Source of the DNA: Streptomyces rubradiris
GTDB lineage: Bacteria; Actinomycetota; Actinomycetes; Streptomycetales; Streptomycetaceae
DNA length: 64,000 nucleotides
Assembly (NCBI RefSeq): GCF_016860525.1
Contig: NZ_BNEA01000001.1
Location: 1,691,501 to 1,755,500 of the forward strand
Reading direction: 5' to 3'
The notes below the pieces were generated by a model. The model did not search any database and was not told where the DNA came from. It was given only the letters and a program-made list of their open reading frames with translations. A program made the translations under genes and the position numbers. Below are positions 10,567 through 58,253 of the stretch, piece by piece. Position 1 is the first letter of the stretch, and every line of letters starts with the position of its first letter.

Positions 10567-10796
10567 AGAACATGGGCCGATGGCCGGGTCCGCCGTGGGC
10601 CGAAAGCCGGTGCTTGACGTCCCGCGGGTGGCCGTGACACCGCCCGTCAGCCGCTTCTCCGCGGGTCAATGCCTGGTACAGACGGTGGCCGGAAACCGGA
10701 CGATCACCTTCACGGGGAGTGTTCGACGGGTCACCCACCGGGCATGAACGGCTGTACGAAAGGCATCGCAAGGCATCGCACGAAGAGAGGAGAGCG

Positions 10797-12380
10797 GTGA
10801 CCGAGGGAGCCGGCGTCCGCATCGCCACCGGGGACCTGCCGGACGACCTGACCGCGGCCGAGGCGGGCATGTGGCAGGCCTTCCGCAACGGCAGCGTGTA
10901 CGACCTGAGCAGCGGCGTGCCCACGGCGGACGACCCGCACGGCGGGCACCCGTGGGGCCCGGAGCGGAGCGTGCGGGCCCGCATCGTCTGCTGGCTGCTG
11001 CTGGACGGCCCGCCGGCGCTGGCCGGCCGGGTGTCCTCGCTGAAGCTCGTCGGCGTACGGATCACCGGCGTGGTGGACCTCGCCGGCGGTCAGGTGACGC
11101 CGTACGTGGAGCTGACGAGGTGCCGCTTCGACCAGGAGATCCGGCTGCCGGAGGCCCGGTTCACGACCGTGCGCCTGGTGGACTGCGCGGTGCCGCGGCT
11201 GGAGGCGGCGCGGGTGCACACGGAGGGCGATCTGCATCTGCCGCGCTGCCGGTTCCAGAGCGGGGTCCGGCTGACGGACGCGCAGATCGGCACCGACCTG
11301 CTGCTCAACCAGGCGATCGCGTACCGAGACCGCAGCGGCCGGTCGATCACGGCGGACGGCATGACCGTCGGCCAGGACCTCCAGGCGGAGATGCTGGAGT
11401 CGCACGGCGAGCTGAGCCTGCGCGGCGCCCAGGTCGGCGTCTCGCTCAGCCTGCGCGGCGCGAAACTCGCCAACGCTCATGCGCGGTTCGCCCTGAACGC
11501 CCCCCAGCTCACGGTCGAGCGCACCCTGTACCTGACCCCGGCCGGCGTGGGCGGTCCGGCGCTCAGCGGCACCACGCCCGCGCACGGGACGCGCATCCAG
11601 CGCTTCGAGTGCCGGGGCGGGGTGCGGCTGGACGACGGCCGGTTCGGGGACGCCGTCGACCTGGAGCGGGCCCGGTTCGCCTTCACCGACGACCAGGAGC
11701 TGTCGCTGCGCCGGGTGCAGACGCCGGAGCTGCGCTTCCTCGGGGACAAGCCGCAGCGCGGCAAGGTGGTGCTGTCGGGCGCGCGCGTGGTGAACCTGGT
11801 GGACCGGGCGAGCAGCTGGCCGGAGGCGGGCAATCTGCACATGGGCGGGTTCACCTACGAGAACCTGGTGCCGCAGGGCCCGTTCCCGCTGACCCGGCGC
11901 CTGGACTGGGTGGCGGCGGCCACCGCCGAGTACGCCCCGGAGCCGTACGAGCGGCTGGCCTCGGTGCTGCGCTCCGCCGGGGAGGACGAGGACGCGCGCG
12001 AGGTGCTGCTCGCCAAGCAGCGCCGGCGGCGCGAGACGCTGCCGCCGGCCGCCAAGGTCTGGGGGTTCGCGCAGGACTGGACCGTGGCCTACGGCTACCG
12101 GCCGGGCCGGGCCGCGGTGTGGATGGCGGTGCTGTGGGCGGCGGGCACGCTGGCGTTCGCGCACGCCGACCATCCGCCGCTGAACTCCGGCGGCCATCCG
12201 GCCTGGAGTCCGGCGCTGTTCACACTGGACCTGCTGCTGCCGGTGATCGACCTCGGCCAGGCGGGCCAGTGGCAGCTGCGCGGCGGCTGGCAGTGGCTGG
12301 CGACGGTGATGATCCTCGCCGGCTGGGTTCTGGCCACCACGGTGGCGGCGGGCGCGACCCGGCTGCTGCGACGAAGCTGA
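10797..12380 (+). CDS. Pentapeptide-repeat-like membrane protein (hypothetical)
   Basis: A 527-residue protein starting at GTG 10797 after an AGAGGAG ribosome site. Residues about 70-380 are a right-handed-helix-like region with recurring short units, such as VVDLAGGQVTPYVELTRCRF, LRGAQVGVSLSLRGAKL and VDLERARF. Two hydrophobic segments lie near the C terminus (AAVWMAVLWAAGTLAFA and WLATVMILAGWVLATTVAAG), followed by a short basic tail TRLLRRS. Streptomyces relatives are, from memory, labelled membrane-associated oxidoreductases, but no nucleotide-binding motif is visible and I do not support that function. It is divergent from hisD. Its last codons are the apparent seed of the tandem array that follows. 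Confidence 0.75.
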   Translation: MTEGAGVRIATGDLPDDLTAAEAGMWQAFRNGSVYDLSSGVPTADDPHGGHPWGPERSVRARIVCWLLLDGPPALAGRVSSLKLVGVRITGVVDLAGGQVTPYVELTRCRFDQEIRLPEARFTTVRLVDCAVPRLEAARVHTEGDLHLPRCRFQSGVRLTDAQIGTDLLLNQAIAYRDRSGRSITADGMTVGQDLQAEMLESHGELSLRGAQVGVSLSLRGAKLANAHARFALNAPQLTVERTLYLTPAGVGGPALSGTTPAHGTRIQRFECRGGVRLDDGRFGDAVDLERARFAFTDDQELSLRRVQTPELRFLGDKPQRGKVVLSGARVVNLVDRASSWPEAGNLHMGGFTYENLVPQGPFPLTRRLDWVAAATAEYAPEPYERLASVLRSAGEDEDAREVLLAKQRRRRETLPPAAKVWGFAQDWTVAYGYRPGRAAVWMAVLWAAGTLAFAHADHPPLNSGGHPAWSPALFTLDLLLPVIDLGQAGQWQLRGGWQWLATVMILAGWVLATTVAAGATRLLRRS

Positions 12381-12785
12381 CCCGCACGGCACCCGCCCGC
12401 TGCGCCGGCCGCCACACCGAAGCCGACCCACACCACACCCGGCCACCACGACGGAACCGGTCCTCCCCACACCCGCCCGCTGCGGGCGGAGCCCCTCCTC
12501 GCCACACCCGCCCGCTACCGGCGAAACCGACCCACGCCACACCCGGCTACTACGACGGAACCGGTCCTCCCCGCACCCGGCCGTTACGGGCGGAGCCCCT
12601 CCTCGCCACACCCGGCCGCTACGACGAATCCGACCCTCCACACCCGACCGCTACCGGCGGAACCGACCCACGCCACACCCGGCCACTACCAGCGGAGCCG
12701 CCCTTCGCCACACCCGACCGCTACGGCGGAGCCGCCCTTCGCCGCGCCCGGCCGCTACGGCGGAGCCGATCCCCGCGGCACCCGC
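12355..12785. repeat. Degenerate 34-35-bp tandem array, about 12 units
   Basis: Units of 32-35 bases, one of 44, follow head to tail, with starts at about 12390, 12434, 12468, 12503, 12538, 12572, 12607, 12639, 12674, 12709 and 12743. Each starts close to CACACCCGGCCGCTAC and continues as GGCGGAACCGACCCACGC or a variant. The 3' end of the preceding gene (from 12355, including its stop codon) matches the same unit, so the array appears to have grown from it. The period is not a multiple of three, so no repeated peptide is kept in frame. There are no spacers, so this is not a CRISPR array. Confidence 0.85.
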
Positions 12786-12912
12786 GCGAGCCCTCCGCAC
12801 CCACGCATGACCCGCATGCACATGCACCCTTTACAGGACCTTCACCGTCGGCCGTACAACCTTCCACGACTTGCCGTGTCCCTCTGGCGCCGCCCCGACC
12901 TGCGGACTTTCA
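12786..12912. other. Spacer after the tandem array
   Basis: No gene, hairpin or clear promoter was recognised between the array and the next gene. The stretch includes a short ATGCACATGCACC-like alternating segment (about 12815-12827). Confidence 0.4.
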
Positions 12913-13968
12913 ATGGTCGGCACCATGGCTCTGCTGCCCTCGTTCATCCGCCCCCACCGCCGGATGCCCCGACGACCCGCGCGCCCGGCCCACCGGCCAC
13001 CGGCCGGGTACGAGGCCGTGCTCGACGCGCCCGACGACCGCCTCTCGCCCGCGCTCGTCGCGGCCGGCCGGGGCGAGTACGCCACCGCGGCCGGGCTGCT
13101 CGCCGACACCCGCGCCACGGCCGACTGGGAGCACCGGGACCGGTACACCCGGCGCCTGGCCGCCTTCGCCCGCTCCCGCCCGGAGTGGTACGAGGAGTGG
13201 CGCGCCGCCGACCCCCACGACGCCGGGGTGCTGCTGGTCGGAGCCCAGCTGGCGGTGGACCGCGCCTGGCCCTCGCCGGCCCGGGCCGAGCTGCTGCGCG
13301 AGGTGAGCCCGCTGATCACCGCCGCCGCCCGCGCCGACGACCGCGACCCGGTGCCCTGGCGCATCGCGCTCGACCACGCGCGCGGCACCCGGGCCGGGCA
13401 CCGCTACTTCGGGGAGCTGTGGGAGGCGGCTGTCCGGCGCGCCCCGCACCACTACGGCTGCCATGTGGCCGCCCTGCGCTACCTGGCCGCCTCCTGGCAC
13501 GGCTCCCACCGCGAGTGCTTCGACTTCGCCGACCGGGCCGCGCAGGACGCCCCTGCCGACTCGCTGGTCCAGGCGCTGCCCGCCCGGGCGGCGTTCGGCT
13601 ATCTGACCGACGGCTGCGGCGCGGCGGTGCCGCGCGGCCGGCTGGAGGCGGCGGCGGACCGGGCGATCGCCCTGTCCGCGCGCCTGCCGGCGGCCGACCC
13701 GTACCCGGCCGAGGTCCGCAACAAGCTGCTGTACGTGCTGCTGCGACTGGAGCGCTGGCGGGACGCCCGGGCCCAGCTGCGGCTGATCGGCCCGTACGCC
13801 ACGTCGTTCCCCTGGGACCGGTTCTCCGAGGACCCGCTCGGCCACTTCCTGAAGCTGCGCGAGGAGCTGGACGCGGCGCTCCCCGGGGCCGCCCTGGCCG
13901 GGCTGCTCTCGGCGCCGCCGGAGCCCGGTGACGGACACGGCGGACACGCCCGCGCCGCAGGCCACTAG
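12913..13968 (+). CDS. Hypothetical helical-repeat (TPR-like) protein
   Basis: A 351-residue protein of unknown function starting MVGTMALLPSFIRPHRRMPR; an ATG four codons later (12925) is equally likely, as no good SD is seen. After a basic N terminus the sequence is a series of Ala/Arg-rich amphipathic helices typical of TPR-like solenoids, for example ALVAAGRGEYATAAGLLADT and NKLLYVLLRLERWRDARAQL. A central stretch carries aromatic and His residues (YFGELWEAAVRRAPHHYGCH). There is no signal peptide or membrane helix. It ends 11 bases before the next gene, so cotranscription with the LON-domain gene is possible. Confidence 0.7.
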   Translation: MVGTMALLPSFIRPHRRMPRRPARPAHRPPAGYEAVLDAPDDRLSPALVAAGRGEYATAAGLLADTRATADWEHRDRYTRRLAAFARSRPEWYEEWRAADPHDAGVLLVGAQLAVDRAWPSPARAELLREVSPLITAAARADDRDPVPWRIALDHARGTRAGHRYFGELWEAAVRRAPHHYGCHVAALRYLAASWHGSHRECFDFADRAAQDAPADSLVQALPARAAFGYLTDGCGAAVPRGRLEAAADRAIALSARLPAADPYPAEVRNKLLYVLLRLERWRDARAQLRLIGPYATSFPWDRFSEDPLGHFLKLREELDAALPGAALAGLLSAPPEPGDGHGGHARAAGH

Positions 13969-33915: not shown

Positions 33916-34983
33916 TCAGGAGCGGCGTTCCTGCTTCTGTTTGCACTCCACGCACAGCGTCGCCCTCGGGAACGCCTGCATCCGGGCCTTGCCGATGGGA
34001 TTGCCGCAGTTCTCGCACAGACCGTAGGTGCCCGCGTCCAGCCGTTCCAGGGCGCGCTCGGTCTGGGTGAGCATCTCGCGCGCGTTGGCGGCCAGCGCCA
34101 GTTCGTGCTCGCGCGTGATGTTCTTGGTGCCGGTGTCGGCCTGGTCGTCGCCGGCGCCGTCCCCGGAGTCCCGCATGAGGCCGACCAGGGACGCCTCGGA
34201 GGAGCTGATCTCCGCCCGCAGCCGTTCCAGCTCGGACTGCAGCTCCGCGCGCGCCTCGCCGGCCTCCTGTGGGCTCCAGGGGTCCTCGCCGGGGCGCACC
34301 GCCAGCTCGCCGGGCTCCGCCGCGCCCGCCCGCGCCTTGGGAACGGCGGTCTGTTCCGCCGTGGCCGTGCCAGGAGTCTTCTTCGCAACCACCGTCGTGG
34401 CTCCCGTCTGCTTGGCGGCCCGCGCCGCGCCCGCTTTCTTGGCCGTGCTCTCGTGCGCCGCCGCCCGCGCCGCGGCCTTCCCCGCGGCGGCCTCCCCGGG
34501 GACGGCGGTCTTCTCGGCGGCGTTCTTCCCGGCGGCCGCCGCCGGGACGACCGCGTTCTTCGTGGCCCCCTTCTTCGTCGCCGCGGACTTCTTCGCGACC
34601 GCGTCCGCACCCGCTGTCTTCTTCCCCACCGCTTTCTTCCCAGCCGCCGCCTTCTTGCCAACCGCCGCCTTCTTGCCGACCGCGGTCTTCTTGCCGACGG
34701 GCTTCTCCTTGCCGTTCGGCGTCTCCTTGGCGATCGCTGTCTCCTTGGCGATCGCCGTCTTCTTGCCGATGGTCGTCTTCTTGGCAACCGCCGCCTTCTT
34801 GGCGACGGCCGTCCTCTTGGCGACGGCCGTCTTCGTCCCGGCAGCCGGCTCCTTCGCGGCCTCGCCCTCTTTCGCGGCCGTCCGGCCCGGGGCGGTGCTG
34901 TCGGGGGCCGCCTTCCTGGCGGCAGGCCGCGCGCCGGTCTTCCCGGTCGCCGGCTGCTGTACGGCGGTCTTCTTCGCCACCAT
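33916..34983 (-). CDS. DksA/TraR zinc-finger protein with histone-H1-like Lys/Ala tail
   Basis: A 355-residue protein in two parts. Residues 1-235 are low-complexity, Lys/Ala/Thr-rich, with repeats of VAKKTAVAKK type resembling histone H1 tails. The C-terminal 110 residues form a DksA/TraR-like helix (SELERLRAEISSSEASLVGL) and a four-Cys zinc finger: Cys323, Cys326, Cys344 and Cys347 (CENCGNPIG, LCVECK). The family binds RNA polymerase through the secondary channel, and the basic tail may bind DNA or RNA. The start is the ATG at 34983 with an AAGGGG site. The role of the fusion is unknown. Confidence 0.88.
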   Translation of the reverse strand: MVAKKTAVQQPATGKTGARPAARKAAPDSTAPGRTAAKEGEAAKEPAAGTKTAVAKRTAVAKKAAVAKKTTIGKKTAIAKETAIAKETPNGKEKPVGKKTAVGKKAAVGKKAAAGKKAVGKKTAGADAVAKKSAATKKGATKNAVVPAAAAGKNAAEKTAVPGEAAAGKAAARAAAHESTAKKAGAARAAKQTGATTVVAKKTPGTATAEQTAVPKARAGAAEPGELAVRPGEDPWSPQEAGEARAELQSELERLRAEISSSEASLVGLMRDSGDGAGDDQADTGTKNITREHELALAANAREMLTQTERALERLDAGTYGLCENCGNPIGKARMQAFPRATLCVECKQKQERRS

Positions 34984-38783: not shown

Positions 38784-38810
38784 TGTCACGCACGAGCGAC
38801 CGGGTGCGCC

Positions 38811-38884
38811 GGGGCGGGCCGGATTCGAACCGGCGTCCTCCTAGATGCCATCGAGGCGCGACGACCATCTGCGCTACGCACCCC
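38811..38884 (-). pseudogene. Degenerate tRNA-like element, possibly tRNA-Ala(GGC) remnant
   Basis: On the minus strand this 74-base segment has a perfect T arm (GCCGG-TTCGAAT-CCGGC) and a D-arm of the form TA-GCGC-AGATGGTCG. The anticodon loop ATGGCAT keeps U33, giving anticodon GGC (Ala). The anticodon stem has one C-U mismatch, and the acceptor stem pairs only at positions 1-6, with an extra base before position 8. No CCA is encoded. It is therefore probably a decayed tRNA or an att-site fragment rather than a working tRNA. Confidence 0.5.
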
Positions 38885-57941: not shown

Positions 57942-58253
57942 CCCGGAACGTACCGGCCGGCCGCCCCGGGACGCGTCCCGCTCTCCGTTCCGAGAACGCA
58001 GAGAACGCAGAGAACGCCGAGAACGCAGAGGACCCAGAGAACCCCGACAGCACCGACAACGCGGTCGGACAAGTCGTATGAGCGGCATCGCCGGGGGCAG
58101 TTGTCCACAGGCGGTGACACGAATCGGTAACGGCAGCGAGAATGCGGGGGTGGCACCGCGTGGAACCTTTTCCGCGTGGTGTCCGTGTTCCGGGGTGGGC
58201 CGGTCGCGCAGTGACAGCGTCGGCCCGGCAAAGAACGGGCCGAGGAGGGCCGG
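57942..58253. other. Intergenic region with 9-bp tandem repeat before moxR
   Basis: After the carbonic anhydrase stop there is an inverted repeat CGGAACG/CGTTCCG (about 57943 and 57985-57991), then eight 9-bp units of GAGAACGCA type at 57992-58063, perfect at first and decaying toward the end. The rest holds no gene; the moxR promoter should lie in about 58095-58200. Confidence 0.6.

Follow-up and report, generated by a model that had tools for sequence, protein, structure and literature searches.

Intergenic tandem repeats that begin behind a stop codon have been described in Mycobacterium tuberculosis, between the genes rnc and fpg1 (ETR-F / VNTR3239). There, according to the portion of the source drawn on here (PMC2734929), the array starts 40 bp behind the stop codon and is composed of exact repeats of 37 bp and of 18-26 bp, whose number varies among strains and reportedly goes with the expression of the next gene. 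The same portion describes these repeats as limited to one species complex; in the other mycobacteria that it lists, the two genes are separated by 1 to 54 bp. The archaeal Borg arrays, as presented in the sections of PMC9879509 considered here, arise independently and change fast; some of their first units lie in a gene end, and flanking partial repeats have been proposed as the seeds of these arrays. Lastly, MIRU are short intergenic repeats found in Actinobacteria, which the excerpted part of PMC12548453 describes as inserting at start codons and as containing an ORF.

Here, we describe an array in a stretch of 64,000 nucleotides from Streptomyces rubradiris (contig NZ_BNEA01000001.1, positions 1,691,501 to 1,755,500), which we call the window in the following and to whose first letter all positions refer. 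Like the rnc-fpg1 repeats, as far as these are covered by the cited portion, it is an actinobacterial intergenic tandem array behind a stop codon, but its units are diverged where those are exact. While the Borg units, in the cited sections, are perfect, A-rich and extrachromosomal, the units of the window are GC-rich, chromosomal and diverged, with a mean pairwise identity of 79.9% among all units but the first. MIRU, in turn, are placed at start codons in the excerpt cited above, whereas the unit of the window occurs at one locus and behind a stop codon: it forms no dispersed family, and it was seeded by the stop of the upstream gene rather than by an ORF-coupled insertion at a start codon. 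Neither is the array a CRISPR, as its units are contiguous and contain no spacers. Its head-to-tail units fall within the range of roughly 10-100 bp that characterizes minisatellites or VNTRs and score far above chance, and we file it as a minisatellite, that is, as an array of a known kind. Among the entries listed in our searches of open-licence literature, no title or opening of an abstract dealt with arrays seeded by a stop codon in Streptomyces.

The array and its units

Counted by anchoring on a 16-bp core, the array consists of 12 head-to-tail units, mostly of 34-35 bp, at window positions 12354-12777 (Table 1), where the right end at 12777 was placed by eye from the core-anchored units. 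TRF detects it at 12405-12784 with a period of 35 (11.1 copies, score 316); a period of 104, which covers almost the same stretch, scores higher, at 426. The best score in 1000 dinucleotide-preserving shuffles of 12354-12924 was 96. The tandem array that had been recognized earlier by inspection is thus real. By core anchoring, the spacing of its units is 34-35 bp, apart from a single 46-bp and a single 32-bp interval.

Table 1. Coordinates of the array, its units and its surroundings in the window
Feature	Position	Strand	Description
Gene A (upstream)	10719..12380	+	From ORF list; 553 aa; last 27 nt are the array seed
Unit 0 (seed)	12354..12387	+	Final nine codons of gene A (TGA included) and the 7 nt behind them; core occurs again 34 bp on
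Unit 1	12388..12433	+	46 bp, a 34-bp unit with 12 additional bases
Units 2-4	12434..12537	+	First copy of a probably duplicated 104-bp three-unit block; TRF period 104
Units 5-8	12538..12673	+	Probable second copy of the block; includes the 32-bp unit 7
Units 9-11	12674..12777	+	Right end of the array
Right flank	12778..12924	+	Outside the array; alignable by MAFFT with the single-copy loci L061 and L062; probably promoter and leader of gene B
Gene B (downstream)	12925..13968	+	From ORF list; same strand as gene A

Unit 0 contains the end of gene A, with the codons CGA CGA AGC TGA (Arg-Arg-Ser-stop), and the copies sit behind this stop codon, in keeping with the earlier view that the array is not selected as a peptide. 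Among units 1-11, the pairwise identity ranges from 69 to 94%. Units 2, 3 and 4 pair with units 5, 6 and 8 (94, 89 and 94% identical, respectively), from which we conclude that a three-unit block was probably duplicated. Two statements of the earlier note on the units do not hold. The array was said to decay to the right, but units 9-11 are 88-91% identical to each other, and it is the coding unit 0, at the left end, that resembles the others least (59-82% identity). Likewise, each unit was said to keep the core, which is exact in just one of the 12; ten have at most two mismatches, and the first two have five and four.

The C-terminal segments of gene A are hydrophobic, as judged by eye, and its product has a weak pentapeptide-repeat match (Pfam PF13576, 20.8 bits, under the cut-off of 27); gene B has no Pfam match. 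Our codon-score caller puts the start of gene A at 10797 and that of gene B at 12913. Between the end of the array and the start of gene B in the ORF list lie 147 bp, and the block at 12826-12924 within them, probably a promoter and leader, shows little change among the relatives whose junctions were compared.

A single copy in the closest relatives

The closest relatives, as found with the gene A protein, are S. eurythermus (L062) and Streptomyces sp. WELS2 (L061), with 96 and 94% identity over the best segment. Genes A and B are 148 bp apart in the former and 152 bp in the latter, compared with 544 bp in the window, and TRF detects no array at either of these two junctions, where only one unit is present. 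The copy number therefore differs between species, with 12 units against one, as judged from one genome per species. This single copy is 97% identical to unit 0 in WELS2 and 88% in S. eurythermus, and together with the bases to its right it aligns with unit 11 and the right flank of the window. With unit 0 being coding and the closest relatives having a single copy, the proposed growth of the array from the 3' end of gene A is supported. The motif ACCCG occurs twice in WELS2, 34 bp apart; in S. eurythermus, the second occurrence reads ACGCG.

With the array DNA as query and two candidates scored per genome, 147 of 392 genomes of the genus had some match at E <= 0.001, and none among the matches listed for the 391 other genomes spanned the array: the best non-self match listed reached 60.8 bits over 65 of the 410 query bases, and the longest among the matches listed covered 124 bases at 72%. 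When the flanks were included, 91 of 395 genomes gave a match at E <= 1e-40. Here, a match across the array was obtained only in the window's own genome, while S. eurythermus (G205) and WELS2 (G126) each gave two separate matches, one on either side of the array.

Arrays at the same junction in other species

We compared the loci of 80 relatives, 77 of which had a countable A-B junction; three were left out. At ten of the 77 junctions we find other, shorter arrays (score >=60). Their periods take nine values between 15 and 51 bp, and their left edges fall between 22 bases ahead of the stop codon and 59 bases behind it. Two of these arrays, in S. actinomycinicus (L071; 23-bp unit, 5.2 copies) and S. 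lucensis (L074; 31-bp unit, 2.9 copies), include the gene's own end and stop codon. Since the unit measures 34 bp in the window but 23 and 31 bp in these two species, this gene end was apparently duplicated on three separate occasions. Common descent of the arrays found here was rejected: when aligned with the array of the window, only one of the 80 loci (L110) beats all of 100 shuffles, which is about the chance level. In a separate set of 30 loci, which includes the window's own and was not added to the above count, arrays with a TRF score >=50 lie at or near the stop codon in L002, L003, L008, L018, L019, L025 and L030; this set overlaps partly with the genomes of the 80 relatives, and its downstream gene could be placed in 24 of the 30 loci.

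Arrays are also found at the other junctions of the relatives' loci, namely at 27 of 412 other co-directional, 30 of 168 convergent and two of 218 divergent ones. The A-B junction (10/77) is not established as a special hotspot by the comparison with the other co-directional junctions (Fisher p = 0.06), the densities being 0.71 and 0.53 arrays per kb. Large arrays at other gene ends were seen in three convergent gaps: 7.5 copies of 48 bp starting 12 bases before the stop in L120, 8.9 copies of 41 bp in L115, and 3.6 copies of 58 bp starting 10 bases before the stop in L067.

Abundance and turnover of noncoding arrays

We count 55 noncoding arrays over 864 kb of the genome to which the window belongs. 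Gene boundaries for all such counts come from our own codon-score caller and not from annotation; gaps below 20 bp and above 1500 bp (2000 bp in some counts, including the comparison with S. eurythermus) were left out, as were arrays with less than 60% of their length in a gap, a rule that set aside 82 arrays of the 864 kb as mainly coding. Convergent gaps are the densest in arrays (16 in 15.5 kb, 1.03 per kb), followed by co-directional gaps (30 in 63.5 kb, 0.47 per kb), and divergent gaps are the sparsest (9 in 35.8 kb, 0.25 per kb). When counted per junction, divergent gaps are not clearly poorer (9/121 vs 42/462, p = 0.72). TRF runs on the gaps alone yield 48 arrays in 583 gaps, compared with 2, 1, 0, 1 and 1 in five shuffled sets, and a single array was found in 200 kb of coding and noncoding DNA of E. 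coli K-12. The array of the window has the top score among the 55 and is the longest; higher-scoring arrays exist in S. eurythermus and some of the relatives.

Within co-directional gaps, the centres of 24 of the 30 arrays lie in the stop-proximal half (p = 0.001). In S. eurythermus, this applies to 13 of 19 arrays (p = 0.17); for the loci of the relatives, with the A-B junction omitted, the number is 21 of 32 (p = 0.11). Two further arrays were noted in the window itself. The first, at 57990-58047, is noncoding, has 9/27-bp units and starts 48 bases behind a stop codon; its counterpart in S. eurythermus has 54 bases fewer and no array of score >=60. The second, at 34611-34834, has 12.6 copies of an 18-bp unit and, on the minus strand, might encode Lys/Ala-rich repeats resembling those in the tail of HU-like proteins.

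For an estimate of turnover, 455 kb of this genome were compared with 400 kb of S. eurythermus, of which 380 kb aligned; the two differ at 3.1% of coding positions and at 6.9% of noncoding positions outside arrays. The 455 kb, which include the window, hold 41 noncoding arrays, a number that refutes the earlier description of such arrays as rare in a core chromosomal region. Anchors allowed us to place 36 of them in S. eurythermus, while five, including the window's array, had no usable anchors. For 27 of these 36, the lengths of the placed intervals are more than 7 bp apart, to which other indels close to the arrays may contribute; in 22 of the 36 intervals, S. eurythermus has no array of score >=60. 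An example of the opposite kind is an array of 3.9 copies of 107 bp in a convergent gap of S. eurythermus (G205:C4:222901-223321); in the genome of the window, the corresponding interval is shorter by 340 bp and holds no array of score >=60. Outside arrays, aligned positions of the two species show 11% substitution in the first 15 bases behind stops, compared with 3% in the first 15 bases before starts. The density of arrays is thus highest in the least constrained DNA, which would be expected of arrays that are tolerated and not maintained.

Origin of the array

Given these observations, we consider it likely that the array is a lineage-specific minisatellite that originated by tandem duplication of a gene 3' end and has no selected function, although its neutrality is something we infer. 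Its history may have started with the tandem duplication of a segment of about 34 bp across the end of gene A and its stop codon, for which the short ACCCG homologies 34 bp apart might have been the trigger of a slip. Because the first copy would still have terminated the protein, nothing would have been lost, and the extra copy would have been free to drift. Later rounds of slippage or unequal recombination could then have added single units and doubled the three-unit block. That the array persists would be owed to its position behind a stop codon and ahead of the next promoter, where DNA is only weakly constrained in this genome.

The age of the array is less straightforward. Four-fold degenerate sites differ by 5.8% from WELS2 and by 6.1% from S. 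eurythermus, and noncoding DNA by 11.3 and 7.8%, respectively. Units 1-11, by contrast, differ by 20% on average, which exceeds the noncoding difference of 7-11% between the species, so that an array born only after the split would not agree with an ordinary clock. Accordingly, either the array predates the split and both relatives have collapsed to one unit, or it mutates faster than its surroundings. The block duplication, with eight differences in 104 positions, is about as old as the species split.

An old array, lost in both relatives by recombination between its units, would still fall within the neutral reading, and we regard it as a plausible but rather doubtful course of events. It would account for the high divergence of the units and agrees with the age of the block duplication, as well as with the 14.8% difference seen in orthologous arrays of near-equal length (82/555 positions in eight arrays, one of them badly aligned at 36%). 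On the other hand, it needs two losses in an almost unresolved trio (supporting site patterns 9, 23 and 13), or one if the relatives are sisters, and the junctions of the 80 relatives retain no remnant of the unit beyond the level of the shuffles. As for faster mutation, the 14.8% compare with 9-11% substitution in the first 90 nt behind stops, which is only suggestive of hypermutation as the cause of the diverged units. Over all aligned array positions, the difference is 18.2% (373/2049) against 6.9% in other noncoding DNA, a value inflated by misaligned units.

A more far-reaching explanation is that an active, error-prone process copies Streptomyces gene 3' ends, including the stop codon, into arrays, repeatedly strikes the same ends across species and yields units that diverge beyond the age of the species. 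We think this improbable. If true, however, the 3' flank would be a source of fast-evolving DNA throughout the genus, and not a site that tolerates rare slips.

Functional readings and assembly

Alternatively, the array might form a structured 3' UTR by which the mRNA of gene A is terminated or protected, an RNA role that the earlier note had suggested. Its location directly behind the stop codon and the richness of convergent gaps in arrays would suit such a role, but its folding is ordinary when compared with shuffles (z -1.12 on the + strand and -0.07 on the - strand), simple consensus scans of 12300-12960 gave neither terminator-like nor promoter-like sites, and Rfam, at the gathering score, gave no match at the array, its only hit in the window being a tRNA at 38810-38883. 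Furthermore, close relatives manage without the array, and we therefore judge an RNA role to be very unlikely.

Even less probable, in our view, is an array of protein-binding sites with the 16-bp core as the site, which had been suggested as well. When units 2-11 are compared in all pairs, the core indeed differs less than the rest (15% vs 24%). In the five most similar pairs, however, the differences are 12/80 in the core and 2/90 in the rest, and the core does not look protected; this is a weak test, since pairs picked by overall likeness favour such an outcome. With up to two mismatches, the core has 37 matches in total, ten in the array and 27 elsewhere, and the reversed control likewise has 27, so that the core outside the array is no commoner than this control and a dispersed repeat family was rejected. 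Moreover, with a helical repeat of 10.5 bp, the spacing of 34-35 bp corresponds to 3.3 turns and not to a whole number. The array may still have a role at this one locus.

Lastly, the earlier note had named absence of the repeat from close relatives, along with long-read evidence, as the mark of an assembly artefact; the repeat is indeed absent from the two closest relatives, and the assembly consists of 22 contigs, with repeats being error-prone, but since the twelve units differ mutually and independent assemblies of other species carry arrays at the same place, we give an artefact almost no credence and read the array as lineage-specific instead.

Implications

Taken as a neutral, lineage-specific minisatellite, this single array matters little, and the abundance of noncoding arrays is the more useful result. 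As such arrays are frequent in this genome and many of them differ from a close species, differences in intergenic length within the genus should not be regarded as regulatory by default. Array loci of this kind might serve as markers for strain typing. Finally, that the units have diverged more than the species bears on the question of whether duplication is mutagenic here.
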